DNA of 64,000 bases from the NCBI RefSeq assembly GCF_000718785.1, contig NZ_JOCA01000023.1, positions 200,758 to 264,757 on the forward strand. Reading direction: 5' to 3'. This DNA comes from Streptomyces sp. NRRL WC-3626 (GTDB lineage: Bacteria; Actinomycetota; Actinomycetes; Streptomycetales; Streptomycetaceae). Position 1 is the first letter of the stretch, and each line of letters begins with the position of its first letter. The translations under genes were made by a program, and so were the position numbers. Below, piece by piece: positions 1-32,036 of the stretch. The notes beneath the pieces are model-generated. The model was not told where the DNA came from and searched no databases. It was given only the letters and a program-made list of their open reading frames with translations.

Positions 1-75
1 GGCCACTGCCCGGCGACGGGTGGGAAGGCCGGGACGAGCATCGACCCGGGAGCCAGGAGACTCACGCGGTCGCCT
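1..75 (+). promoter_or_regulatory. Cobalamin riboswitch, 3' half (cut by window start)
   Basis: The first bases carry the conserved 3' half of a cobalamin aptamer. A GCCACTG segment starts at 2, GGGAAGG lies at about 22-28, and a B12-box-like AGCCAGGAGAC lies at 51-61. The 5' core is outside the window. The first start codon follows at 126, so the element most likely controls the ferredoxin/FhuF genes. The B12-box match and the spacing are what I see. The control is inferred. Confidence 0.72.
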
Positions 76-125
76 CCTCAACAAACCACCGGGGCGGATC
101 TCCCCGGAGAGAGGGACGGCACCGC

Positions 126-530
126 ATGCCCGCAACGCCGACCGGACCAACGACTGACGACGAGAGGCCCGCGAGGGTCACCGGCCCCGTGCCGTGCCGC
201 ATCGTCGTGTGCCGCGACTGCTGCTGCGGCACCCCGAAGGTGACCGGCGTCGACCACGCGGACCAGACCGAACGCCTGCGTGCCGCAGCACCGGTACGCG
301 TCTCCGACTGCCTCGACGTCTGCGAACACGCCAACGTCATCGTCGTACAGCCCTCCGCGGAGGGCCGGGCAGCAGGTGCCCGGCCAGTCTGGCTGGGGCT
401 GGTCAACGACCCGGACGCGACCGAGGACATCGTCGCGTGGATCCGCACAGGCGGTCCTGGGGTGGCGCCCCGGCCGGACATTCTCGACCTGTACGCCATC
501 ACGCCGTCGCGACGGCGTACGGCCTCCTGA
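126..530 (+). CDS. Thioredoxin-like (2Fe-2S) ferredoxin domain protein
   Basis: A 134-aa protein with cysteines at 24, 29, 32, 33 and 34 (VCRDCCCG) and at 62 and 66 (DCLDVCEH). This arrangement is typical of thioredoxin-fold [2Fe-2S] ferredoxins, which act as soluble one-electron carriers. Members of this family often sit beside cobalamin or metallophore genes. The ATG at 126 has a purine-rich GGAGAGAGGG upstream. It follows the truncated B12 riboswitch and lies 35 bp before the FhuF-like gene, so the two are probably one transcript. The ferredoxin may pass electrons to the FhuF-like cluster, which is an inference. There is no membrane segment or signal peptide. Confidence 0.72.
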   Translation: MPATPTGPTTDDERPARVTGPVPCRIVVCRDCCCGTPKVTGVDHADQTERLRAAAPVRVSDCLDVCEHANVIVVQPSAEGRAAGARPVWLGLVNDPDATEDIVAWIRTGGPGVAPRPDILDLYAITPSRRRTAS

Positions 531-565
531 GCGTGTGGCCGGAGAGCCGGAAGGAGGACAGGACC

Positions 566-1264
566 GTGCACCACGCCCGTGCCTCGGCCGCCTCCGTTGC
601 CGCCGCCCTGCGTGACGTGGCGGGACTCGGCGGCTTCTTCGCCCTGCACGTCGGCGGACGGGACGACGGCTGGCATCCGGTCGCCCGCTCCTACAGGGCG
701 GGTTTCGCCGATCTCGCCGAGGCCGTCGCACGCCGCCACCACACTTCGGAGCCGCGCGTCGACGTCTCCATCGCCCAGCTCGGGCACGCCGCCCGCCTCT
801 GGTCGCCGGCCCTGGCCTGCGTCGTCCTGCACGGAATCGTCCCCGCCCTGGAAGGGCTGGAGCGGGCCGACGACGGGCCGGCCCTCCGGGTGCCCCGCCC
901 GGCCGGCTGGTACGCCGACCGGCTCGACGACGGCACTGCCCGCGCCCTGTACCAGCAGGTGACCCGTCACCTGTCGGCACTGGCCGACGGACTGCGCGTC
1001 AAGGTCGCCCCGCGTCTGCTGGACGGCAACTCGGCGTCGGCGCTCGCCGGGGCGGCCCACGCCCTGCTCGCGCTCCGTCCCGCCGTACGCGGGCCGCTCA
1101 CCGACCTCACGACCGCGCTGCTGGACACCGGACGCCTGGTGGGCACCGGAGTGCTCACCGGCCCTGACCTCGCGTTCCGCCGCCGAAGCTGCTGCCTCTA
1201 CTACCGCGCGCCGAACGGCTCGAAGTGCGGTGACTGCGGGCTGGCCGAGGGTGTGCCCCGCTGA
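566..1264 (+). CDS. FhuF-like (2Fe-2S) ferric-siderophore reductase family protein
   Basis: A 232-aa protein whose C-terminus carries C209-C210-x10-C221-x2-C224. This is the FhuF cluster-binding pattern, preceded by RRRS and followed by a short tail. FhuF proteins are cytoplasmic reductases that release iron from hydroxamate siderophores. The GTG at 566 is preferred because AAGGAGG lies 8 bases upstream, although an in-frame GTG at 533 also exists. It follows the ferredoxin gene and is followed by a strong hairpin at 1301-1339. Control by a B12 riboswitch would be unusual for an iron enzyme, so a cobalt or corrinoid substrate is worth considering. A paralogue lies at 31245. Confidence 0.78.
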   Translation: MHHARASAASVAAALRDVAGLGGFFALHVGGRDDGWHPVARSYRAGFADLAEAVARRHHTSEPRVDVSIAQLGHAARLWSPALACVVLHGIVPALEGLERADDGPALRVPRPAGWYADRLDDGTARALYQQVTRHLSALADGLRVKVAPRLLDGNSASALAGAAHALLALRPAVRGPLTDLTTALLDTGRLVGTGVLTGPDLAFRRRSCCLYYRAPNGSKCGDCGLAEGVPR

Positions 1265-1300
1265 GCCCTGCGATGAGGTACTTCCGTTTCGGGCTGTGCC

Positions 1301-1339
1301 GCTCACCGGGCCGGAAGCCGTGCGCCCGGCCCGGTGAGC
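1301..1339 (+). terminator. 13-bp GC-rich hairpin
   Basis: GCTCACCGGGCCG at 1301-1313 pairs perfectly with 1327-1339 across a 13-nt loop. It sits 36 bp after the FhuF-like stop and before the MFS gene. It probably ends or attenuates the first operon, so the MFS gene may depend on read-through or its own promoter. Confidence 0.65.
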
Positions 1340-1451
1340 CGGGAGTCAGGAGCGGGACAGCTCGTCACGGATGGTGCGGGCGGCGGCCACGGGCCGCCTC
1401 GAAGCCGGTACGGCCCCGACCAGGCCCACGAAACGACAGGAGCGCCACGAC

Positions 1452-2753
1452 GTGCCGACCCCACCCGTACCGACCACAGCATCCGAGAGTCTTCCCGGAA
1501 AGCAACGGCCCATCCTGCTCGACGCCGCCTTCCTGCGACTGTGGACGGGCGCCACAGCATCGGGTCTGGCGACCTGGGCCCTGCCGTTCGTGCTGGGGTT
1601 CGCGGTGCTCGACCGCACGCTCACCGCCACCGACCTCGGCCTGCTGCTCGCGGCACGCACCGCGGGATTCCTCGCCGCGGTGCCCGTCGCCGGGGTACTG
1701 GCCGACCGGCACTCCCGCCGGGGCGTCGTGCTGTGGGCGGGACTGGCGGCGGGGGCCGCGGCACCGCTGATCGTCGCCGGACTCGGCCGCTCGGTCCTGC
1801 TGATGGCGGCGGCCGCAGCCCTGGCCGGCGCGGGTCAGGGCGCCTGCCGGCCTGCCTTCCAGGCCCTGACCGCCGAGGTCGTCGACGCCGGCCGCAGGCA
1901 GCAGGCCAACGCCGCCATGACCCTCTCGGTCCGGGTCACCACCCTCACGGGCCCTTCGCTGACCGCCCTGCTCGCCGTGTTCCTCGACACCCGGGCCCTG
2001 CTGCTGGGCATCGGGCTGCTGTGGCTCGTCGCCGCCCTCGTACCCGGACCGGGCGCCCGTGCCGAGACCGAGGAGACTGCCTCCGCCGAACGACCCGAAC
2101 GGGTGTCGTTCCTGGCCGAGTTCGCCGACGGCGTCCGTGAAGCCCGCAGGCACCCGTGGTTCCTCGCCGGGCTGGCGGCCCTGACGGCCGTCATAGCCAC
2201 CGGCTACTCCGCGACCGGCGTCGCCCTGCCCCTGGTCAGCCGCGATGAGTACGGCACCGAGGTCGTGCTCGCGGGTGCGATGACCGCCTACACCGCCGGG
2301 GCGCTGGCCGCGGCCCTCCTGATCGCCCGCTGGCGCCCGCGGTCGGCGGGCTGGACCGCTCTGGCGGGCCTCGCCGCCTACGGCTTCGCCCCGCTGAGTC
2401 TGATGGTCCCTGTACACCCCGTGGTGGTGATGGCCGCCTACGCCGTCGCCGGCATCGGCATCGAACTGTTCAACGTGCCGTGGTTCACCGCGACCCAACG
2501 CGAGGTCGCACCGGACAAGCTCGCCCGGGTCTCCTCGTTGGACTTCCTGCTCTCCTACGGTCTCGCCCCGGTCGGACTGGTCCTCATCGCGCCGGCCATC
2601 GACACCTTCGGCACCCGCGCCGTCCTCGCAGTCTGCGCCCTGACCTGCTTTGCCGCACCGGCCGTCGCCGCCCTGGTGCCCAGCGCCCGCCACTTCTCCC
2701 ACAGGTCCGAAACGCCGTCCGGAGCCGAGCGAGAAGCCAGGAGGGCCGCCTGA
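1452..2753 (+). CDS. MFS transporter, metallophore-exporter type
   Basis: A 433-aa protein with about 12 hydrophobic segments. It has the MFS loop 2-3 signature (LADRHSRRGVVL near residue 80) and a charged central loop around residues 205-230. The GTG at 1452 has GGAG about 9 bases upstream, and an upstream in-frame GTG at 1371 lacks a site. This branch of the superfamily often exports siderophores. It is followed closely by the dioxygenase gene, and a 32-codon ORF (2753-2851) overlaps its stop as TGATG. The position between two B12 riboswitches and beside a FhuF-like gene suggests transport of a cofactor or metal chelator. The substrate cannot be read from sequence. Confidence 0.78.
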   Translation: MPTPPVPTTASESLPGKQRPILLDAAFLRLWTGATASGLATWALPFVLGFAVLDRTLTATDLGLLLAARTAGFLAAVPVAGVLADRHSRRGVVLWAGLAAGAAAPLIVAGLGRSVLLMAAAAALAGAGQGACRPAFQALTAEVVDAGRRQQANAAMTLSVRVTTLTGPSLTALLAVFLDTRALLLGIGLLWLVAALVPGPGARAETEETASAERPERVSFLAEFADGVREARRHPWFLAGLAALTAVIATGYSATGVALPLVSRDEYGTEVVLAGAMTAYTAGALAAALLIARWRPRSAGWTALAGLAAYGFAPLSLMVPVHPVVVMAAYAVAGIGIELFNVPWFTATQREVAPDKLARVSSLDFLLSYGLAPVGLVLIAPAIDTFGTRAVLAVCALTCFAAPAVAALVPSARHFSHRSETPSGAEREARRAA

Positions 2754-2868
2754 TGGGGCAGTCTCGGGTCATGCACTCACTCAGCAGCAGCACCCAGCCG
2801 CCTGCTCCCCCCCGCGCTTCCGTGCGTCGTCCCCGACCGGGTGTCCGGTGAACGGGAGCAGGAGGCCC

Positions 2869-3564
2869 GTGCCCCTCCTGGCACGGGACGGAGCCGTCGT
2901 CCTCACCGGCTACGAGAACACCGCCGACGCCCTCGTGGTCGCCGCGGCCCGCGTCCTCGGCAGCCGCCTGCGTGAGCTGTACCCGCATCGCGTGCGCACC
3001 TCGCAGGACGCCGGTCCCGTCCACCTGCACGCCGACAGCTTCGACCTCGTCGTCGACGTCGGCGGCGTGCCCAGCAGGCGGCGCCACCCGGATGAGGACC
3101 ACGTCCTGATCCAGTACGTCCGGCCCGCTCGCTCCGGGGGCGACTCCTGCGCGCTCGACGCGTACGGCTTCGTCGACGGCCTCGCGTCGACCGACCCCAC
3201 CCTCCTGGACTTCCTCACCGGCACCGACGTCGACCTGTACGGCAAGTGGGCGGGACTGCGCGGACTTCCCTCCACCCCACGCGTCGCCCGGCACGTCGAG
3301 TACACCCGCACCGGCCGCCGCATCGTCCGCCGCACCGACGGGGCCGTCCCCCTGCACCGTGATCCGGACACCGACCGGGTGCGCGCCATGCTGACCCGCT
3401 TCGACGAGACCGTGCACGCCCTCGAACCGACCCTCCCGCGCTTCCGGCTTGCCGAGGGCGACATCCTCGTCCTCGACAACTACCGCTGCCGGCACGGCCG
3501 CGACGCGCACACCGGTGAGCGCACCGTCCGCATCCTCACCCTGCGCACGGCCGACGCCCGCTGA
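2869..3564 (+). CDS. TauD/TfdA-family Fe(II)/2-oxoglutarate dioxygenase
   Basis: A 231-aa protein beginning with the usual dioxygenase N-terminus (RDGAVVLTGY). It has an HxD iron motif (HLHAD) near residue 50 and the distal His within YRCRHGRDAH near the C-terminus. The spacing to the HxD motif fits a compact TauD-like hydroxylase. The GTG at 2869 lies behind GGGAGCAGGAGG, and the in-frame GTG at 2848 is the alternative. Such enzymes hydroxylate amino-acid precursors of metallophores, but no NRPS or NIS synthetase is visible here. It ends 64 bp before the second B12 riboswitch. It is probably co-transcribed with the MFS gene. Confidence 0.7.
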   Translation: MPLLARDGAVVLTGYENTADALVVAAARVLGSRLRELYPHRVRTSQDAGPVHLHADSFDLVVDVGGVPSRRRHPDEDHVLIQYVRPARSGGDSCALDAYGFVDGLASTDPTLLDFLTGTDVDLYGKWAGLRGLPSTPRVARHVEYTRTGRRIVRRTDGAVPLHRDPDTDRVRAMLTRFDETVHALEPTLPRFRLAEGDILVLDNYRCRHGRDAHTGERTVRILTLRTADAR

Positions 3565-3627
3565 GTGAGCCTCCACTGCGGTGGCGCGAACCAGCGCCTC
3601 CGCAGGGAGAGAAGGCGTGGGAACACG

Positions 3628-3738
3628 CACTAGGCTGCAAGTGCCTCGTGGGGGAAGTCCGGTCGAAGTCCGGCGCTGTCCCGCAACGGTAGGCGGAGTC
3701 CCGTACGGGGTTCCGTGAGCCCGATTACCCGCGGTGGT
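3628..3738 (+). promoter_or_regulatory. Cobalamin riboswitch (complete core)
   Basis: This contains the aptamer core: GTGCCTCGTGGGGGAAGTCC at about 3641-3660, a GGTCGAAGTCCGG loop, and CGCTGTCCCGCAACGGTAGG at about 3673-3692. It ends in a B12 box, GAGCCCGATTACCCGC, near 3717-3732. The start of the importer permease lies about 115 bp downstream, enough room for a translational or terminator expression platform. A B12 riboswitch ahead of a FecCD/BtuC permease is a textbook arrangement. Confidence 0.92.
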
Positions 3739-3852
3739 GAAGCTCCTGTCAATCGCCGTGGACTGCGAGAGGGCGCTGCGCGGGGCGCCCGGCGCCCGGA
3801 GCTGCTCCTTCGATCACGTAGGTGCACGGCCCGAGGCGAAAGCGATCCGCCT

Positions 3853-4956
3853 GTGGCCACGCTCCGCGACCGCACACCCGCCGTACCGCACCGCACCACG
3901 AGCGGCGGGCCCCCACCGCCCCGGCGCGTCCCGTTGCCCCTGCTCGTGACCGGCCTGTGCGTCGCGCTCCCCGTCTCCCTGGCCTGCGGGGCGGGCATCG
4001 GGGCGTCGGGACTCTCGTGGGGCGAGGCGCTGCACTACCTCTGGGCGGGGCTGACCGGTGGGTCCATAGCTCCGGACGAGGTCTCCTCCTACGTCATCGT
4101 GTGGGAACTGCGCTTCCCGCGGGCCGTGTTGGCGGCGGTCGTCGGCGCCGGTCTGGCGGCCGTGGGCGTCGCTGTCCAGGCCATGGTCCGCAACGCGCTC
4201 GCGGACCCGTTCGTCCTCGGCATCTCCTCCGGCGCGGGCGTGGGAGCCAACGCCGTGCTCATCTTCGGCGCCTTCGGCGCACTCGGTGTCTGGGCGCTGT
4301 CCATGGCGGCGTTCCTCTCCGCGCTCGCCGCCATGGCACTGGTGTACGCGGTCGCCCGGACCCCGCGGGGCCTGACACCGCTCCGCCTCCTGCTGACCGG
4401 TACCGCGATGTACTACGGCTTCTCCGCCGTGACCACGTTCATGGTCTTCGCCGCCGAGCACGGTGAAGCGGCCCGCTCCGCCATGATGTGGCTGCTCGGC
4501 AGTCTGGGCGGCGCGAACTGGTCCTCCGTACCGATCGCCGCGGGCGCGGTGCTCGGCGGCCTCGTCCACCTCGGATGGTCGGCCCGGCGCCTGAACGCCC
4601 TGGCGATGGGCGACGAGACCGCTGCCGCACTGGGAGTGGACCCCGGGCGGCTGCGCAGGGAACTCTTCCTCACGACCGCCGCCGTCACCGGGGCGGTGGT
4701 CGCGGTCAGCGGGGCGATCGGCTTCGTGGGCCTGATGGTTCCGCACGCCGCCCGGATGCTGGTCGGGGCGGACCACCGCCGGCTGCTGGCCGTCGCGCCC
4801 CTGGCCGGCGCCGTGCTGCTGGTCTGGGTCGACATCCTGTCGCGCGTGGTGCTCGCCCCCGCCGAACTGCCGCTGGGCGTATTGACGGCAGCGATCGGCG
4901 TGCCCTGCTTCGTCCTGCTCATGCGCCGCCGCACCTGCACCTTCGGAGGCGCGTGA
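3853..4956 (+). CDS. FecCD/BtuC-family ABC transporter permease (corrinoid-type)
   Basis: A 367-aa, roughly ten-TM permease with FecCD hallmarks: LRFPRAVLAAVVGAGLAAVG, QAMVRNALADPFVLG, and a C-terminal coupling region ending GFVGLMVPHAARMLVGADHR. It imports B12, haem or ferric siderophores with the ATPase and binding lipoprotein that follow. The B12 riboswitch just upstream points to corrinoid import. This gene set is also sometimes annotated as a putative F420-0 transporter, an older prediction that the riboswitch argues against. The GTG at 3853 is chosen because it gives a family-length N-terminus. The longer ORF would translate the riboswitch. The stop overlaps the ATPase start as TGATG. 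Confidence 0.85.
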   Translation: MATLRDRTPAVPHRTTSGGPPPPRRVPLPLLVTGLCVALPVSLACGAGIGASGLSWGEALHYLWAGLTGGSIAPDEVSSYVIVWELRFPRAVLAAVVGAGLAAVGVAVQAMVRNALADPFVLGISSGAGVGANAVLIFGAFGALGVWALSMAAFLSALAAMALVYAVARTPRGLTPLRLLLTGTAMYYGFSAVTTFMVFAAEHGEAARSAMMWLLGSLGGANWSSVPIAAGAVLGGLVHLGWSARRLNALAMGDETAAALGVDPGRLRRELFLTTAAVTGAVVAVSGAIGFVGLMVPHAARMLVGADHRRLLAVAPLAGAVLLVWVDILSRVVLAPAELPLGVLTAAIGVPCFVLLMRRRTCTFGGA

Positions 4957-5729
4957 TGCAGGTCGACATCGACACGGTCACCGTGGAGATCTCCGGCACG
5001 CGGCTGGTGGAGGACGTTTCGCTGCGGGCGGGCAGCGGTCAGGTCGTGGGACTCGTCGGGCCCAACGGCAGTGGTAAGTCGACCCTGTTGCGATGCGTCT
5101 ACCGGGCCCTGCGTCCCACGGCCGGTGCGGTACGTCTGGACGGCGACGACCTGCTGGCCATGAACACGCGCGAGAGCGCACGCCGGCTCGCCGCCCTTCC
5201 CCAGGAAGCGGTCGCGGAGTTCGACTTCACGGTGGCCGAGGTCGTGGCCATGGGCAGGCTGCCGCACCAGGGGGCGGTGGCCCGGGACACCGACGAGGAC
5301 CGGCGCACGTGTGCCGCCGCGCTGGAAGGAGCCGGCGCCGGCCACCTGGCCCACCGGGGCTTCCTCACGCTCTCCGGCGGCGAGAAGCAACGGGTCCTGA
5401 TCGCCCGCGCACTCGCCCAGCAGCCACAGGTCCTGGTGCTGGACGAGCCCACCAACCACCTCGACATCGCCCAGCAGCTGGAGGTCCTGTCCCTGGTCCG
5501 GGCCAGCGGGCTGACCGTGCTCACCGCGCTGCACGACCTCAACCTCGCCGCGCTCCACTGCGACCTCCTCCACGTCATCGACGGCGGACGGATCGTCACC
5601 TCCGGCGCCCCCCACGACGTCCTCACGCCCGTCCTGCTGGCCGACGTCTTCGGCGTCCGGGCGCACCGCGTCCCCCACCCCGAAACAGGCGCGGTCCAAC
5701 TGCTCTTCGACCGTCTCCCCACCCAGTAG
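4956..5729 (+). CDS. ABC transporter ATP-binding protein, FecE/BtuD type
   Basis: A 257-aa ATPase with Walker A GPNGSGKST (35-43), Q-loop PQEAVAEFDF, signature LSGGE, Walker B VLVLDEP, D-loop TNHLD and H-loop ALHD. All catalytic elements are intact. It energises the FecCD permease at 3853. The ATG overlaps the permease stop (TGATG), and GGAGG lies 7 bases upstream, showing tight coupling. It belongs to the B12-riboswitch operon and is followed 36 bp later by the binding lipoprotein. Confidence 0.9.
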   Translation: MQVDIDTVTVEISGTRLVEDVSLRAGSGQVVGLVGPNGSGKSTLLRCVYRALRPTAGAVRLDGDDLLAMNTRESARRLAALPQEAVAEFDFTVAEVVAMGRLPHQGAVARDTDEDRRTCAAALEGAGAGHLAHRGFLTLSGGEKQRVLIARALAQQPQVLVLDEPTNHLDIAQQLEVLSLVRASGLTVLTALHDLNLAALHCDLLHVIDGGRIVTSGAPHDVLTPVLLADVFGVRAHRVPHPETGAVQLLFDRLPTQ

Positions 5730-5765
5730 CCCTCTCCCCGGTCCCCTCGAAGGAGTCACCGTCCC

Positions 5766-6788
5766 ATGCCCAACCTCATACGCCCCGCCGCCCTCGCCCT
5801 CGTCCTGGCCCTCACCGTCACCGGCTGCGGAGCGGACGTCTCGTCGGAGGAGGGAAAGCGAGACGGCGCCCGGGCCTCCGGCAGCCACTATCCGGTCACG
5901 GTCGAGAACTGCGGTGAGAAGAGGACGTTCGAGAGGGCTCCGCAGCGCGTGGTCACCAACGACGTCGGCATCACCGAGATCATGTTCGCCCTCCGCCTGG
6001 AGGACCACATGGCCGGATACGTCATGCCCGACGACAAGGGCGACCTCACCACGGTGCCGTGGAAGGACGGTTACCGGAAGACCGAGTGGCTCTCGAAGGA
6101 TCGCATCAACAAGGAGCTGGTCTTGGACGCCCGTGCCGACCTGGTCTTCGCGGGCTGGAACTACGGCTTCAACGAGGGCGAAGGCTTCACGCCCGCCGCG
6201 CTGCGTCGCCTGGGCATCGACTCGTACCTGCTCAGCGAGTCGTGCCGCAACGGACAGGGCAAGGCCCGCGGCGTGATGCCACCGCTCGACGCGCTGTACA
6301 CGGACCTGCGGAATCTGGGCAAGGTGTTCGACGTCGAGGAGAGGGCCGAGACCCTGATCACCGAGTTTCGCGAGCAGGTGGCCGAAGCACAGGCGGAGGC
6401 ACCGAAGGGCGCCGACCGGCCGCGTGTGTTCCTCTACGACAGCGGGGAGGACAAGCCGTTCACGTCCGGTGCCTTCGCGGGGCCCCACGACATCATCACC
6501 AAGGCCGGCGGCGACCACATCATGAAGGACCTCCAGGACAGCTGGACCACCGTGGGCTGGGAGACGGTCGTCGCCCGCGACCCCGAGGTCATCGTGATCA
6601 ACGACTACGGGGACATCACCGCGGAACAGAAGCGGAAGTTCCTCACGTCCTACAAGCCGCTCGCGAACGTCTCCGCCGTCAAGAACGACCGGATAGTCAC
6701 CCTCGACTACGTCGACCTCGTCGAGAGTCCGCGCAACCCCGCGGCCATCAGCTCACTCGCGGCGGACCTGAGGAACCTCCGCTCCTGA
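5766..6788 (+). CDS. FecB/BtuF-family substrate-binding lipoprotein
   Basis: A 340-aa protein with a signal peptide ending in a lipobox (TVTGC, Cys about residue 22). A FecB/TroA-type fold follows: an N-lobe with RVVTNDVGITEIMFAL, a DLVFAGWNY stretch, a long linking helix near residues 195-215, and a C-lobe with VIVINDYGD. It captures the ligand outside the membrane for the permease and ATPase just upstream. The domain carries two extra cysteines (VENCGE and SESCRN) that could form a disulfide. The B12 riboswitch makes cobalamin or a cobinamide-like corrinoid the best ligand guess. The F420-0 label used for similar proteins is an alternative I consider weaker. Confidence 0.82.
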   Translation: MPNLIRPAALALVLALTVTGCGADVSSEEGKRDGARASGSHYPVTVENCGEKRTFERAPQRVVTNDVGITEIMFALRLEDHMAGYVMPDDKGDLTTVPWKDGYRKTEWLSKDRINKELVLDARADLVFAGWNYGFNEGEGFTPAALRRLGIDSYLLSESCRNGQGKARGVMPPLDALYTDLRNLGKVFDVEERAETLITEFREQVAEAQAEAPKGADRPRVFLYDSGEDKPFTSGAFAGPHDIITKAGGDHIMKDLQDSWTTVGWETVVARDPEVIVINDYGDITAEQKRKFLTSYKPLANVSAVKNDRIVTLDYVDLVESPRNPAAISSLAADLRNLRS

Positions 6789-6860
6789 GCCCCGGGCCGT
6801 CTCGGCCGACCGTCCGAAGTCCGGGAGAGCCGACCCTCCGCCGTCACGCGGCAGGGAGGC

Positions 6861-6883
6861 GAAGCCGGCACCTTCCCGGCTTC
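6861..6883 (+). terminator. 8-bp hairpin after the corrinoid-type importer
   Basis: GAAGCCGG (6861-6868) pairs with CCGGCTTC (6876-6883), followed by a short pyrimidine run. It lies 72 bp after the binding-protein stop and probably separates that operon from the next ABC system. Confidence 0.5.
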
Positions 6884-6947
6884 TTCGTCCCCTCCGGGAA
6901 CCGAGCGCCTCTTCCGTCCGACTGCTGTGAGGAGGCGGGGAGGTGGC

Positions 6948-7583
6948 ATGGAAGGGCTGGATGTCCGGATGTCGGGCGTCGTGTGCCGGCACGGCCGGGT
7001 CGAGGCCGTGCGCGACGTCGATCTCGACATCGTGCGCGGGCAGCGAGTGGCGCTGACCGGTACCAACGGGTCGGGCAAGACCACGTTGCTGCGTGCCGTT
7101 CTGGGGCTGCACCGGCATGGCGCGGGCCGGATCCTGGTGGGTGGCCGGGACACCGGGAGCGCCACGGAGTGGGCGTGGCGGCGACAGGCGTGCGCGTGGA
7201 TCCCGCAGAAACCGGCGACCGGCCGTTTTCCCTTGCTGGCAGGCGAGTTGCTGGCCAGCGGCGGTGCGCGTGCCGAGGCGGCGGAGGCGGCCGACAAGCT
7301 CGGGGTCGGGCATCTCGCCGACCGGCCGTTGCATACATTGTCCGGTGGTCAGCTCCAGCGCATGTACCTGGCGCGGGCGGTCGGCTGTGTGGCGGCGGGG
7401 GCGGGCGTCCTGCTCGCCGACGAGCCGACCGCCGCCCTCGACTTCTCCGGTCAGGAGGAGGCGGCCGACGTACTGCTCTCCCTGCCGGTGACCGTCGTGG
7501 TCGTCACGCACGACCGGGCTCTGGCCGAGCGCTGCGACCGGGTGCTGGAGATGGCCGCGGGACGTCTGCGGGAGGTCCGGTGA
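6948..7583 (+). CDS. Metal ABC transporter ATP-binding protein (ZnuC/AztA-like)
   Basis: A 211-aa ATPase with Walker A GTNGSGKTT, a Q-loop in WIPQKPATG, signature LSGGQ, Walker B VLLADEP and H-loop VVVTHD. It is short for the ZnuC group and ends right after the H-loop region. The ATG at 6948 follows GAGGCGGGGAGG. It overlaps the permease gene by a GTGA junction and forms a three-gene importer. No zinc-uptake-regulator box is evident in the 160 bp upstream, so the controlling metal is open. The neighbouring B12-controlled genes suggest cobalt as well as zinc. Confidence 0.85.
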   Translation: MEGLDVRMSGVVCRHGRVEAVRDVDLDIVRGQRVALTGTNGSGKTTLLRAVLGLHRHGAGRILVGGRDTGSATEWAWRRQACAWIPQKPATGRFPLLAGELLASGGARAEAAEAADKLGVGHLADRPLHTLSGGQLQRMYLARAVGCVAAGAGVLLADEPTAALDFSGQEEAADVLLSLPVTVVVVTHDRALAERCDRVLEMAAGRLREVR

Positions 7584-8449
7584 GCGCCCTGGCCGCGGCC
7601 GACGTCGGTCAGCTCCTGCAACTCGTGCCCGTCCAACGGGCCGGTATCGCCCTGCTGGTGGCCGCGGTCGGGCTGCCGGTGATCGGGGTCGTGATCGTCG
7701 GCCTCGACATCATGCCGGTGCGGTTCGCGATGATGCATGTCGCACTCCTGGGCATCGCCGTCGCTCTGCTGACCGGGCTCGATCCCATGCTGTGCGCGCT
7801 GGTGGCCTGCGCGCTCGCCGGCGCCGGAGTCGCTCCGCTGGCCCGTACCCCGGACGGTCTGTCAGGTGCCATGGGTCTGCTGATGAGTCTGGCGATCGCC
7901 GCCGCCCTGCTCGTGCTGGCCGTCTCCGGCGTCAACGCGGCGGGCGCCTTCTCCCTGCTCTGGGGATCCATCCTCTCGGTCGGTATTGCCGACCTGTGGC
8001 TGCTCGTCGTGTTGGCCGTCGTCGTACCGGCTCTTTTCTGGTGGCGTCGCAGAGACATCGCGCTCCTCCTCTACGACCGTGAACTCGCCCTGGCCTCGGG
8101 CGTGCGGGTCGACCGGCTCACCCTCGTGCTGCTGGTCCTGGTCGCGGTGTCCGTCGCCGGAGCCATCAAGCTCACCGGTGCTCTCCTCGTCGACGCGCTG
8201 ACGCTTCTTCCGGCCCTCGCCGCCCGGCGGCTGGGCCGCTCCCTGCTGTCCATCACCGTGTGGGCGGTCGGCATCGGCGTGGTCGTGAACCTGACCGGGT
8301 TCCTGGTCGCGCTCCGGTTCGACTGGCCGCCCGGGCCCGTCCTCGTCCTTACGGCCGGCGTGGTCGTCCTCGCCGTCCATCTCGTACCCGAACGGAGAAT
8401 CAGCTCATGGCGCGCACCCGCGTCCGCATCACTCCCCTCCTCGCACTGA
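7580..8449 (+). CDS. Metal ABC transporter permease (ABC-3/ZnuB family)
   Basis: A 289-aa protein with about eight hydrophobic segments and the ABC-3 signature region. It has an ALASGVRVDRL cytoplasmic loop and an IKLTGALLVDALTLLPALAA helix near residue 200. It forms the membrane channel for divalent metal uptake with the ATPase before it and the lipoprotein after it. The GTG start overlaps the ATPase stop. Its 3' end overlaps the binding-protein start by 43 nt in another frame, an unusually long overlap for this operon type. Confidence 0.85.
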   Translation: MSALAAADVGQLLQLVPVQRAGIALLVAAVGLPVIGVVIVGLDIMPVRFAMMHVALLGIAVALLTGLDPMLCALVACALAGAGVAPLARTPDGLSGAMGLLMSLAIAAALLVLAVSGVNAAGAFSLLWGSILSVGIADLWLLVVLAVVVPALFWWRRRDIALLLYDRELALASGVRVDRLTLVLLVLVAVSVAGAIKLTGALLVDALTLLPALAARRLGRSLLSITVWAVGIGVVVNLTGFLVALRFDWPPGPVLVLTAGVVVLAVHLVPERRISSWRAPASASLPSSH

Positions 8450-9228
8450 GTTTCAGCGCGGCCCTCCTGCTGACGGCCACCGGCTGTGGTGGGGAAAGCG
8501 ACACGTCGTCCTCCTCATCCGACGCGGACGCGGCGGGGAAGGGCACCGGCCCGGTCGTGGTCGCCACGACCAGCTGGGAAGGGGCGTTCGCCAAGGCCGC
8601 CGGCGCCGAGGACGTCAAGGTCATCGTGCCGGAGTCGGTGCAGCACGCCCCCGACTACGACCCGAAACCCTCCGATCTCGCGGCCGTGGCGGACGCCGAC
8701 TTCGTGTTGTACGCGCCCTTCGAGCCGTACGCGGAGAAGTTCAAGGAAGCCGCCGGAGGAGACGCCGAACTGGTCGAGGTCGATCTCGACAACGACGCGG
8801 ACAAGGCCAAGGCCGAGGTGACCCGGCTGGGCAAGATGTTCGGCACCGAGGACACCGCCGCCGAGTGGATCGCCTCGTTCGACACCGAGTACGGCAAGCT
8901 GCAGAAGGACCTCAAGAGCGCCTGGCCGGACGCCAAGGCGCCCACCGTCGTGGCCCAGGTCTTCTCCGCCTGGTCGGCGAAGCTGGCCGGGGCCGAGGTG
9001 GTCGGCACGTACGGCCCCGAGGCCGTGACGGCCAAGCAGTTGTCCGACCTGTCCAAGAAGAGGCCCCAACTGGTGCTCGACAACGTGCACATGACGACCG
9101 GCACCGTGCTGCCCGACTCGGGCGCGCGTCAGGTGGGGATCGTCAACTACCCGGACAAGGGCATGGATCTGCTGACCGTCTACAAGAACGCGGCGACGAC
9201 GCTGGAGAAGGCGATGAACGCCTCCTGA
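8407..9228 (+). CDS. Metal ABC transporter substrate-binding lipoprotein (ZnuA/AztC-like)
   Basis: A 273-aa protein with lipobox TATGC (Cys about 27). It has a serine/aspartate-rich linker and then a cluster A-I fold, with QHAPDYDPKPSDLAAVADAD giving the family core. The whole sequence has only two histidines (QHAPD and NVHM), and the His-rich loop of many zinc-binding proteins is missing. Metal coordination therefore probably uses acidic side chains as well. It is the last gene of the importer and ends at the bidirectional terminator 9238-9289. Zinc is the default ligand for the family. Manganese or cobalt are possible. Confidence 0.8.
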   Translation: MARTRVRITPLLALSFSAALLLTATGCGGESDTSSSSSDADAAGKGTGPVVVATTSWEGAFAKAAGAEDVKVIVPESVQHAPDYDPKPSDLAAVADADFVLYAPFEPYAEKFKEAAGGDAELVEVDLDNDADKAKAEVTRLGKMFGTEDTAAEWIASFDTEYGKLQKDLKSAWPDAKAPTVVAQVFSAWSAKLAGAEVVGTYGPEAVTAKQLSDLSKKRPQLVLDNVHMTTGTVLPDSGARQVGIVNYPDKGMDLLTVYKNAATTLEKAMNAS

Positions 9229-9237
9229 GCCGTGGCA

Positions 9238-9289
9238 CCGGACGACAAGGGCCGCTCGGGGAACACTCCGAGCGGCCCTTGTCGTCCGG
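9238..9289. terminator. Bidirectional terminator between convergent operons
   Basis: CCGGACGACAAGGGCCGCTC and its exact complement form a stem of about 22 bp (9238-9289) with a small AC-rich loop. It lies between the metal importer (+) and the acyl-CoA ligase (-), so it can stop transcription from both sides. Confidence 0.85.
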
Positions 9290-9308
9290 CGGGTCAGCCG
9301 GCCGAAGC

Positions 9309-31244: not shown

Positions 31245-32036
31245 ATGGCGCGACTCCCCGACGACCACCCCCTAGGGGCCCTGGTACTACTGCACCTCGT
31301 GGACCTCGACCCGTCGCTCACCGCCCTTCACCGTCTCGGTGGATTCTTCGTACTGCGTACGGCAGGAGGCGCCGACCGTCGTCTGCCCACGCTCGCCCGG
31401 ACATACGGGCCCGGACGCCCGGATGTTCACGGAGATCCCCTGATCACCCGGGTCCGCCGGGTCGCCCGGGCGCTGGGCACCCCGGAGGAGCGGGTCGCCG
31501 CCTCGGTGGCCCAGCAGGGGCTCGCCGCCCGCCTGTGGTCCGTCGCCCTCGGCTGCGCCGCCCTGCACGGCGCCGTCCCCGACCTCGCCCCGCCGCTGCT
31601 GCGCTGGGACCCCGAGGCCGGCGCCCCCGACGACCTCTGGCTGACCGAGGTGCGACCGCTGCCCGGCGACGCCGGGACCATCGCCCGGCTGGTGCTGCAC
31701 GGTCACCTCGAACCCCTCGCCGGGGCCCTGCGCGCCCGCCACCGTCTCGCCCCCGGCCTGCTGCGCGGCAACGCCGCCTCCGCGCTCGCCGGCGCCGCCC
31801 GGGAACTGGACCGCTGGGGGCGCCGCCACGGCCGTACGGACGTCCGTGCCCGCGCCTCGTCCCTCGCGGCCGAACTCCTCGCGCACCCCCTCCTCGCCGG
31901 GACCGGAACCCTTACGGGGACCGCCTTCCGGCGGCGCAGCTGCTGCCTCTACTACCGCGTCCCCGGCGGAGGAGTCTGCGGCGACTGCTGCTTCGCCCGG
32001 CCGCCCCGCTCTTCCCCACGCGCCCCGTCTGGGTGA
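31245..32036 (+). CDS. FhuF-like (2Fe-2S) reductase family protein, paralogue
   Basis: A 263-aa paralogue of the 566 product. It shares GGFFxL near the start, the block AARLWSVALGCAALHGAVPDL, and a C-terminal cluster site C233-C234-x10-C245-x2-C248, again preceded by RRRS and LYYR. Cys249 directly follows the last ligand and is extra. FhuF proteins reduce ferric siderophores. This copy is not beside a transporter. It lies 38 bp before the glycogen synthase gene and divergent from the EamA gene. The ATG at 31245 has AGGGTGGG upstream. Longer in-frame starts (31143, 31185) are possible. Confidence 0.75.
   Translation: MARLPDDHPLGALVLLHLVDLDPSLTALHRLGGFFVLRTAGGADRRLPTLARTYGPGRPDVHGDPLITRVRRVARALGTPEERVAASVAQQGLAARLWSVALGCAALHGAVPDLAPPLLRWDPEAGAPDDLWLTEVRPLPGDAGTIARLVLHGHLEPLAGALRARHRLAPGLLRGNAASALAGAARELDRWGRRHGRTDVRARASSLAAELLAHPLLAGTGTLTGTAFRRRSCCLYYRVPGGGVCGDCCFARPPRSSPRAPSG

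Follow-up and report, generated by a model that had tools for sequence, protein, structure and literature searches.

A ferredoxin–FhuF cassette with two cobalamin riboswitches in Streptomyces: candidate uptake-and-release half of a siderophore-like cobalt-acquisition system

The locus and its cobalamin riboswitches

The window is a 64,000-nucleotide stretch of contig NZ_JOCA01000023.1 (C23) of Streptomyces sp. NRRL WC-3626, whose position 1 corresponds to C23:200758. Genes for a ferredoxin, an FhuF-fold protein, an MFS transporter, and a TauD-type oxygenase lie between two cobalamin riboswitches (RS1 and RS2), and RS2 is followed by an importer composed of a FecCD-type permease, an ATPase, and a binding protein (Table 1). 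Loci and genomes used for comparison are designated L and G, respectively.

Table 1. Features at the start of the window (window coordinates).
Feature	Position	Strand	Remarks
RS1, 3′ part of cobalamin riboswitch	1..83	+	whole = C23:200652-200840; B12 box 51-61
Candidate expression platform of RS1	71..116	+	anti-Shine-Dalgarno, hairpin, ribosome site
Probable thioredoxin-like [2Fe-2S] ferredoxin, 134 aa	126..530	+	
FhuF-fold protein, 232 aa	566..1264	+	CC-x10-C-x2-C [2Fe-2S] motif
MFS transporter	1452..2753	+	PF07690 118 bits
TauD/gamma-butyrobetaine-dioxygenase-like oxygenase	2848..3564	+	PF02668 48.9 bits; start uncertain
RS2, short cobalamin riboswitch	3629..3750	+	RF00174 31.1 bits; model R1 40.6 bits
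FecCD-type permease	3853..4956	+	PF01032 299 bits; GTG start at 3853 likely; tree
ABC ATPase	4956..5729	+	PF00005 117 bits
Importer substrate-binding protein	5766..6788	+	PF01497 77 bits; tree

The original prediction that two B12 riboswitches flank the four genes is confirmed. The start of the window cuts RS1 at its 5′ side to a fragment scoring 36.8 bits against RF00174 (cut-off 31.5). In the Rfam check proposed with the prediction, the aptamer with upstream sequence added is full-length (model positions 1-189) and reaches 92.6 bits; because a complete aptamer appears in this way, the sequence-based refutation fails. RS2 is a short form that scores just below the cut-off (E 4e-5), while its counterpart in the importer leader of L049 scores 36.7 bits, above it.

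The RS1 leader contains an anti-Shine-Dalgarno element (CGCCTCCTC, 71-79), a hairpin (CCGGGGCGGATCTCCCCGG, 89-107), and a ribosome site inside 106-116, which together probably form its expression platform. The first two elements are kept in all 37 riboswitch-ferredoxin leaders taken, a set without those of L145 and L185, and a Shine-Dalgarno-like site is present in 36 of them. The platform pairing occurs in the minimum-energy fold, with folding no better than that of shuffled sequences (z 0.68). A mir-250 match was discarded, as its score is far under the model's cut-off.

Iron and zinc control of the cassette were both considered and rejected: window positions 1-9300 contain neither an IdeR/DmdR iron box nor a Zur box with up to four mismatches. 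The expectation that FhuF is normally iron-controlled did not hold either, in that no iron box with up to six mismatches was found in any of 23 riboswitch-free FhuF loci. The same search was negative in 16 of 17 riboswitch FhuF loci, the other being L142, which has an iron box with two mismatches. The MFS and TauD genes had likewise been described as normally iron- or siderophore-controlled, which finds no support here: they fall within the box-free region, and close relatives of both adjoin DUF364-type metallophore clusters that are mostly Zur-boxed.

The ferredoxin–FhuF pair

Cysteines 24, 29, 32, 33, 34, 62, and 66 of the probable ferredoxin are invariant in an alignment of nine rows. The FhuF-fold protein shows both the FhuF fold and the C-terminal cysteine motif (C209, C210, C221, and C224). 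Foldseek alone returned no useful match for its model and a second aligner gave one; against the FhuF siderophore-iron reductase equivalog TIGR03951, the protein scores 21.8 of the 63.85 bits needed.

A same-strand cobalamin riboswitch lies upstream of 39 of 48 close ferredoxins versus 5 of 32 distant ones, among 80 selected loci. In the FhuF tree, from which loci duplicating another row and matches shorter than 150 aa were excluded, the window protein belongs to a clade (support 100/99) in which 14/14 rows adjoin a riboswitch; for rows L017-L040, the label “no riboswitch” means none within about 1.5 kb. The adjoining riboswitch of L043 is on the opposite strand and leads an importer, and the L038 FhuF stands behind an importer whose leader lies outside the sequence covered. 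The host genome also encodes an FhuF paralogue (window 31320-31997), with no riboswitch in the surrounding 9 kb.

Riboswitch-led importers adjoin the pair in several genomes. L049, from another Streptomyces, forms one operon in the order riboswitch-FecCD-ATPase-binding protein-ferredoxin-FhuF, with an importer 81-84% identical to that of the window. L147 and L148 read riboswitch-ferredoxin-binding protein-FecCD-ATPase-FhuF with a BtuFCD-like importer, and an importer of that type is also adjacent in L043, L051, and L132. A ferredoxin under a riboswitch without FhuF is common; by gene names assigned by eye, ferredoxins of this group stand beside a CbtA-like gene behind a riboswitch in L121 and L136 and beside a NiCoT-like gene in L134. 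The ferredoxin–FhuF pair is the conserved core of the cassette. Membership of the MFS and TauD genes in this core was ruled out, with no match above 60 bits in the other eight close FhuF loci. Since the link between pair and riboswitch recurs and riboswitch-led importers adjoin it, corrinoid or cobalt chemistry, as originally predicted, is the right field. A CbiW-like role for the ferredoxin is a possible lead; in the one paper found, cbiW is named only as the first gene of a B. megaterium operon. Frankia metal lists, in the part of the source available, treat FhuF as an iron reductase (PMC4531530).

The importer and SbnA-type metallophore clusters

The importer had been taken as simply BtuCD-type, an assignment that its trees do not sustain. 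Both the binding protein (support 100/99) and the permease (96/99) group with importers from metallophore clusters that carry Zur boxes. The other riboswitch-led importer of the same genome (L044) belongs to a separate, BtuFCD-like clade, which neighbours that of the window importer in the permease tree. A third clade, away from that of the window, comprises the DUF364-class importers L189, L247, L252, L253, L254, and L255. The NCBIfam cut-offs for BtuFCD are not reached (BtuC, 226.6/461 and 220.8/334; BtuF, 42/234; BtuD, 122.7/281 bits), nor are those of the F420-0 importer models TIGR03868/03869/03873 (161.5/392.4, 285.3/437.35, and 287.3/372.4 bits), which are the best-scoring NCBIfam models for this importer, with TIGR03873 the best for the ATPase. 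Resemblance to siderophore systems is by itself weak evidence, because a putative locus for B12 import and biosynthesis is reported to include siderophore-type transporter genes (PMC12971057).

The window importer and MFS transporter resemble parts of SbnA-type metallophore clusters, which split by gene content into an ATP-grasp class and a DUF364 class. The ATP-grasp class has a cobalamin riboswitch in 7/7 clusters and a Zur box in 0/7 versus 1/16 and 12/16, respectively, for the DUF364 class, a contrast drawn from 23 clusters out of about 50 places listed, most of them the best-scoring, with related genomes that are not independent. A weak match of L255 to model R1 (24.9 bits) was not confirmed by Rfam and is left uncounted. 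In six of the seven ATP-grasp clusters, the biosynthetic genes are led by the riboswitch; the exception is L248, whose riboswitch stands before the next importer only, with none found before the first importer. Redox genes (ferredoxin, FhuF, or ferric-reductase-like) adjoin 5/7 riboswitch-class versus 2/16 DUF364-class clusters (p 0.011). Zinc requires no reduction. Five riboswitch-class clusters are represented in the tree by an importer (L240, L241, L244, L246, and L248), and each has a riboswitch-led importer of the BtuFCD-like clade; therefore, the product of this class might act with corrinoids.

L244 unites importer, MFS, GHMP kinase, SbnA-like, and ATP-grasp genes in one same-strand riboswitch-led block, and its MFS protein is 81% identical to that of the window, which also shares 67-82% identity with the MFS of 11 of 17 DUF364-class clusters. 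The window MFS is a putative metallophore exporter (or importer). The TauD-type oxygenase has 182 homologous proteins; at 238 aa, it is shorter than most of those listed (about 245-270 aa). Relatives with 70-77% identity lie beside metallophore clusters in L189 and L190, and the gene was matched in 2 of 249 family genomes, its own included, as well as in G290, outside that sample. At a seemingly syntenic place, G290 (L190) carries a riboswitch-ferredoxin together with a DUF364-class cluster that has a Zur box and includes MFS, TauD, and importer genes.

Metallophore biosynthesis genes are present in related loci, with none among the genes of window positions 1-9228. In the host genome, a GHMP kinase query, for which there was no positive control, gave no match. 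The best-matching SbnA-like protein there (32%) lies beside a 41% DUF364 protein and an Opp/Nik-like ABC transporter. Riboswitches adjoin CbiM/CbiQ, CobN, and CbiB in the same genome.

Possible functions and relation to known systems

An importer of a metal complex and electron-delivering partners under B12 riboswitches suggest a siderophore-like system for cobalt (or B12) rather than iron. We tentatively favor, short of calling it probable, the reading that the window holds the uptake-and-release half of a B12-repressed, cobaltophore-type acquisition system. Under B12 scarcity, the two riboswitches would permit synthesis of the ferredoxin, FhuF, and importer, a direction that follows from the riboswitch class of the two observed aptamers. 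The binding protein and permease would import the cobalt complex of a small metallophore, and FhuF, with electrons from the ferredoxin, would reduce Co(III) to the labile Co(II) form for use by the cobalt chelatase and B12 pathway that the genome itself encodes. Transport of the free metallophore across the membrane would fall to the MFS protein, and its modification to the oxygenase. As the genome yielded no close biosynthetic genes, the metallophore might come from neighbours or from a divergent cluster on contig C22. An extended form of this proposal, which we hold with greater reserve, is a true Streptomyces cobaltophore: a small chelator made by SbnA, GHMP-kinase, and ATP-grasp enzymes, with B12 riboswitches governing how it is made, exported, taken back up, and unloaded by reduction (through FhuF, ferredoxin, and a ferric-reductase-like membrane protein). 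It would be a cobalt sibling of the Zur-controlled zincophore family, with the window as its uptake half.

Reduction of a cobalt chelate is ranked slightly above removal of a corrinoid upper ligand, and corrinoid import with such removal is a close rival. Here, the importer would take up B12-type corrinoids, FhuF and ferredoxin would reduce their cobalt so that the upper ligand (cyanide, methyl, or water) is stripped ahead of adenosylation, and the roles of the MFS and TauD proteins would be those of passengers. This is a serious possibility, if a doubtful one: cobalamin riboswitches commonly control B12 uptake, according to the passages available from a review (PMC7689651), the pair also joins BtuFCD-like importers, and the frequent riboswitch-ferredoxin without FhuF fits a general corrinoid reductant. 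The partial scores of the importer against the NCBIfam corrinoid ATPase (259 of 537 bits) and BtuC (226.6 of 461) can be read in the same way, but these scores are under the cut-offs, the importer lies outside the BtuFCD-like clade, a riboswitch-led importer is already available in L044, and the relatives of the MFS, TauD, and importer proteins indicate a tie to metallophore clusters. The frequent FhuF-free ferredoxin and the arrangement in G290 would also suit a mixed cassette, in which riboswitch-ferredoxin-FhuF generically aids the reduction of Co(II) to Co(I) that precedes adenosylation in B12 biosynthesis, and the remaining genes (MFS, TauD, and importer) are zincophore-locus leftovers between riboswitches. 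That account is improbable, however, given that the importer has its own RS2 and no Zur box with up to four mismatches in 1-9300 and that L049 joins importer and pair in one riboswitch operon. Ordinary iron-siderophore uptake wrongly tied to B12 would suit the FhuF fold and FecCD importer, both typical of siderophore systems, but is very improbable in view of the two aptamers, the recurrent riboswitch link, and the lack of an iron box with up to four mismatches in 1-9300.

Cobalt supply for B12 is usually explained by ion transporters. If the favored cobalt-chelate reading is true, a dedicated metallophore that carries cobalt and gives it up on reduction would constitute a new supply route, in a genus of early industrial B12 producers (PMC8123684). 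The weaker claim alone, an FhuF–ferredoxin pair behind B12 riboswitches, brings a reductase fold associated with “iron” into the field of B12 and cobalt and offers clear targets. In the open literature, outside which most subscription journals lie, no paper was found on a cobaltophore or on a metallophore with a cobalamin riboswitch in Streptomyces.

The closest known system for the window FhuF is the E. coli ferric-siderophore reductase FhuF (PDB 7qp5), from which it differs in its ferredoxin partner, riboswitch leader, and score below the equivalog cut-off. The importer shares transporter class and riboswitch leader with the vitamin B12 importer BtuFCD, unlike which it scores below the BtuC, BtuF, and BtuD cut-offs and groups apart from the L044 importer. 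Among Zur-controlled zincophores, [S,S]-EDDS of Amycolatopsis japonicum is likewise a small chelator whose synthesis involves no NRPS or NIS enzymes (PMC4993170, passages available), and the Zur motif tGaNNatSatNNtCa of known systems (S. coelicolor Zur regulon, PMC5472717, passages available) agrees with the DUF364-class boxes. In contrast, clusters of the ATP-grasp class carry B12 riboswitches instead of Zur boxes, frequently along with redox genes, in a comparison that covers clusters other than the EDDS genes themselves. In the known B12-riboswitch regulon, RF00174 leaders also precede importers and cobalt genes, with repression expected at high B12 (PMC7689651; S. lividans cbiM and cobD leaders, PMC8079986). 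The passages available from the former mention FhuF once, as a [2Fe-2S] ferrisiderophore reductase, and those from the latter name no FhuF or ferredoxin target. What sets the window apart from that regulon is riboswitch control over a redox pair and over an importer of metallophore type.

Cobalamin riboswitches of the cassette and of the genome

The window runs from base 200758 of contig 23 to the end of that contig, in a draft genome of 7.9 Mb, and contains two cobalamin aptamers (RF00174), as originally predicted: RS1 precedes a ferredoxin-FhuF pair, and RS2 precedes a FecCD/ATPase/binding-protein (PBP) importer. RS1 scores 36.8 bits as cut by the window edge, and the proposed Rfam check with upstream bases added recovers a complete aptamer (92.6 bits). 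RS2 is a short form whose 31.1 bits (E 4e-5) fall just short of the 31.5-bit Rfam cut-off; R1, a cobalamin riboswitch model built here, gives it 40.6 bits. All 37 riboswitch-ferredoxin leaders taken carry, 3′ of the aptamer, an anti-Shine–Dalgarno element, CGCC(T)CCTC, and a GGGGCGGA..TCCCC hairpin. The fold predicted for the window's own leader, which is no better than shuffles, pairs the ribosome site with the anti-Shine–Dalgarno element; RS1-type leaders may thus act by translational control.

Nine RF00174 matches, seven above cut-off, occur in the strain's own genome. CbiM/CbiQ cobalt-transporter genes (L045), a binding-protein/FecCD importer (L044), MetE, CbiB, class I NrdA, and CobN plus a gene that by eye looks CobG-like each adjoin a match, and from such neighbors the strain appears to be a B12 producer that requires cobalt. 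An SCO2321-family protein (L009), whose repeats by eye resemble intrinsic-factor-like ones, lies behind a weak aptamer (29.7 bits, below cut-off).

Coordinates of the cassette and of features in compared loci
Feature	Sequence	Position	Remark
RS1, 3′ part	Window	1-83	
Ferredoxin	Window	126-530	
FhuF	Window	566-1264	
MFS	Window	1452-2753	
TauD	Window	2848-3564	
RS2	Window	3629-3750	
Importer	Window	3853-6788	
AztABC/ZnuABC-like metal ABC transporter	Window	6948-9228	Directly behind cassette
Second FhuF-like gene	Window	31320-31997	45-49% identical; no riboswitch; before glycogen-synthase-like gene (named by eye)
Ferric-reductase-like membrane protein (PF01794)	L010 (window's locus with upstream contig)	7660-8637	Just upstream of window; ends right before RS1
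metE-like gene, apparently broken	L041	5236-7069	Adjoins fhuF
Lone cobalamin riboswitch	L042	7301-7515	Faces fhuF
Cobalamin riboswitch-FhuF-ferredoxin, then immediately ZTP riboswitch and folD-like gene	L167	3585-5309	
Divergent ATP-grasp-DUF364-SbnA-like-MFS cluster, then Opp/Nik-like ABC	Own genome G000 (L261)	C22:1-7000	No riboswitch listed

Recurrence of the riboswitch-ferredoxin-FhuF arrangement

FhuF has matches in 159 of 200 family genomes searched; among the matches listed, only the own genome, G160 and G164 (91%), and G005 (73%) exceed 55% identity. With five named relatives added (S. ardesiacus, S. prasinopilosus, Streptomyces sp. NWU339, S. hirsutus, and Streptomyces sp. ATexAB-D23), the arrangement recurs, a cobalamin riboswitch lying directly 5′ of ferredoxin-FhuF at L010, L041, L042, L047, L048, L050, and L051. 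At L049, a single riboswitch heads FecCD-ATPase-PBP-ferredoxin-FhuF, whose importer proteins share 81-84% identity with those of the window, and at L043 FhuF occurs without ferredoxin, divergent from a riboswitch-led importer. Relatives (73-95%) of the ferric-reductase-like protein accompany riboswitch loci; MFS and TauD have no match above 60 bits in the eight loci just named other than L010. The lone L042 riboswitch may once have led a metE that has since been lost, and the same locus holds a 94-97% copy of the AztABC/ZnuABC-like transporter behind ferredoxin-FhuF, with a sodF-like gene between.

In a 45-row FhuF tree, every row of the window's clade (14 rows, support 100/99) is labelled riboswitch, that of L043 lying on the opposite strand. 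Among 26 distant FhuF loci (L015-L040), four have a riboswitch nearby. The riboswitch/no-riboswitch label, the latter meaning none within ~1.5 kb for most rows, needs at least five changes on the tree (shuffled mean 15), so the association has arisen or disappeared repeatedly.

The ferredoxin profile matches 334 of 394 family and 72 of 394 class genomes. From the matches listed, 80 were sampled, most with ~4 kb on each side and non-randomly, mainly from the list top and other families. Within this sample, a same-strand riboswitch lies no more than 500 bp upstream of 35 of the 48 ferredoxins that reach 70% identity (39 at any distance, the four extra reaching it through a PBP-FecCD-ATPase operon) against two of the 32 below 70% (five at any distance), a contrast with a Fisher p of 8e-9 when relatedness of genomes is ignored. 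Nine close ferredoxins lack an upstream riboswitch; for four of these, R1 instead matches shortly downstream on that strand (Rfam confirms three), and a fifth has a weak 27-bit match in this position. The orders seen are riboswitch-ferredoxin alone, riboswitch-ferredoxin-FhuF, riboswitch-FhuF-ferredoxin (mostly other families), riboswitch-PBP-FecCD-ATPase-ferredoxin, and riboswitch-ferredoxin-PBP-FecCD-ATPase-FhuF.

SbnA-type metallophore clusters and importer kinship

TauD is uncommon among the family genomes sampled, with matches in 2 of 249, the strain's own being one; a large database holds 182 homologous proteins, and the named ones among 120 listed are actinobacterial. Relatives (70-77%) in G216 and G290 adjoin SbnA-like PLP enzyme, GHMP kinase, DUF364 (annotated "heavy-metal chelation"), and methyltransferase-like proteins. 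An FKBP-like gene (named by eye) upstream of the window also occurs in G290, so the two loci look syntenic.

The SbnA-like enzyme profile has matches in 37 of 249 genomes of the family and in 19 of 296 of the class. The 23 places examined of about 50 listed, mostly high-scoring (L041, L042, L189, and 20 more), split by gene content into an ATP-grasp class (L041, L042, L240, L241, L244, L246, and L248) and a DUF364 class. All seven ATP-grasp clusters have a riboswitch and none has a Zur box (at most 2 mismatches), whereas DUF364 clusters have a riboswitch in 1 of 16 (L252, heading a ferredoxin-importer operon; p 3e-5) and a Zur box in 12 of 16 (p 0.0013). Redox genes adjoin 5/7 versus 2/16 clusters, respectively (p 0.011). 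The riboswitch heads the biosynthetic genes in six ATP-grasp clusters, and that of L248 heads the neighboring importer only. The Zur motif searched agrees with the published tGaNNatSatNNtCa (PMC5472717). Across the 80 ferredoxin loci (709 kb), it occurs once at the same mismatch limit, at L120, the G290 cluster itself, and no Zur or iron box lies within 4 mismatches in window positions 1-9300.

Riboswitch-led GHMP kinase-SbnA-like-ATP-grasp clusters (L240, L241, L244, L246, L041, L042, L047, and L048; also L248) include an MFS gene in most cases, have S. ardesiacus (L047) and S. prasinopilosus (L048) as named carriers, and are candidates for cobaltophore biosynthesis. L244 has a single same-strand riboswitch-led block whose MFS shares 81% identity with that of the window. 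Methyltransferase-DUF364-GHMP-SbnA clusters with Zur boxes and an MFS gene (L249, L251, L257, L258, L259, L190 of G290, and others), most with a FecCD importer within the stretch seen, form a candidate zincophore family.

The window's importer is related to those of metallophore clusters. In the binding-protein tree (35 rows; program warning of long branches), it groups with L049, then with the first importer of L248 and those of seven Zur-boxed clusters (L190, L243, L245, L249, L251, L257, and L258; 100/99). The permease tree (46 rows) agrees on this group (96/99), yet places it beside a second, riboswitch-led clade that includes L044 and is labelled BtuFCD-like here, its riboswitches pointing to B12 transport. 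A third clade comprises riboswitch-led L181-L183 and L186 and, apart within it, importers of six DUF364-class clusters. The best NCBIfam models for the riboswitch-led importers of L044 and the window are those of a "putative F420-0" importer, below cut-off (208 of 392 bits for the L044 binding protein); the assumed substrate of that family may deserve a second look.

Cobalt chelates, corrinoids, and known systems

The corrinoid or cobalt chemistry anticipated by the original prediction is likely when two readings are taken together. Tentatively preferred is the uptake and reductive release of a cobalt metallophore complex: B12 would repress the cassette, cobalt would be the metal handled, Co(III) would be reduced, and MFS and TauD would serve the metallophore system. 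A redox release step is possible for cobalt and does not exist for zinc, and the redox genes accompanying the riboswitch class therefore fit cobalt. Cobalt-chelate uptake is slightly weakened because the L248 riboswitch does not head its biosynthetic genes and because the six DUF364-class importers sit elsewhere in the tree. Since ferredoxin and FhuF also accompany BtuFCD-like importers, and since that clade serves riboswitch-class clusters, corrinoid salvage, in which imported corrinoids would be reduced and lose their upper ligand, follows close behind as a possible but slightly more doubtful account.

In the open literature, with most subscription journals outside its scope, no description of a cobalamin-riboswitch FhuF/metallophore system was found, nor anything on cobaltophores or on a metallophore with a cobalamin riboswitch in Streptomyces. 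One genome-mining paper mentions, as a false positive, a putative locus for B12 import and biosynthesis that carries transporter genes of siderophore type (PMC12971057).
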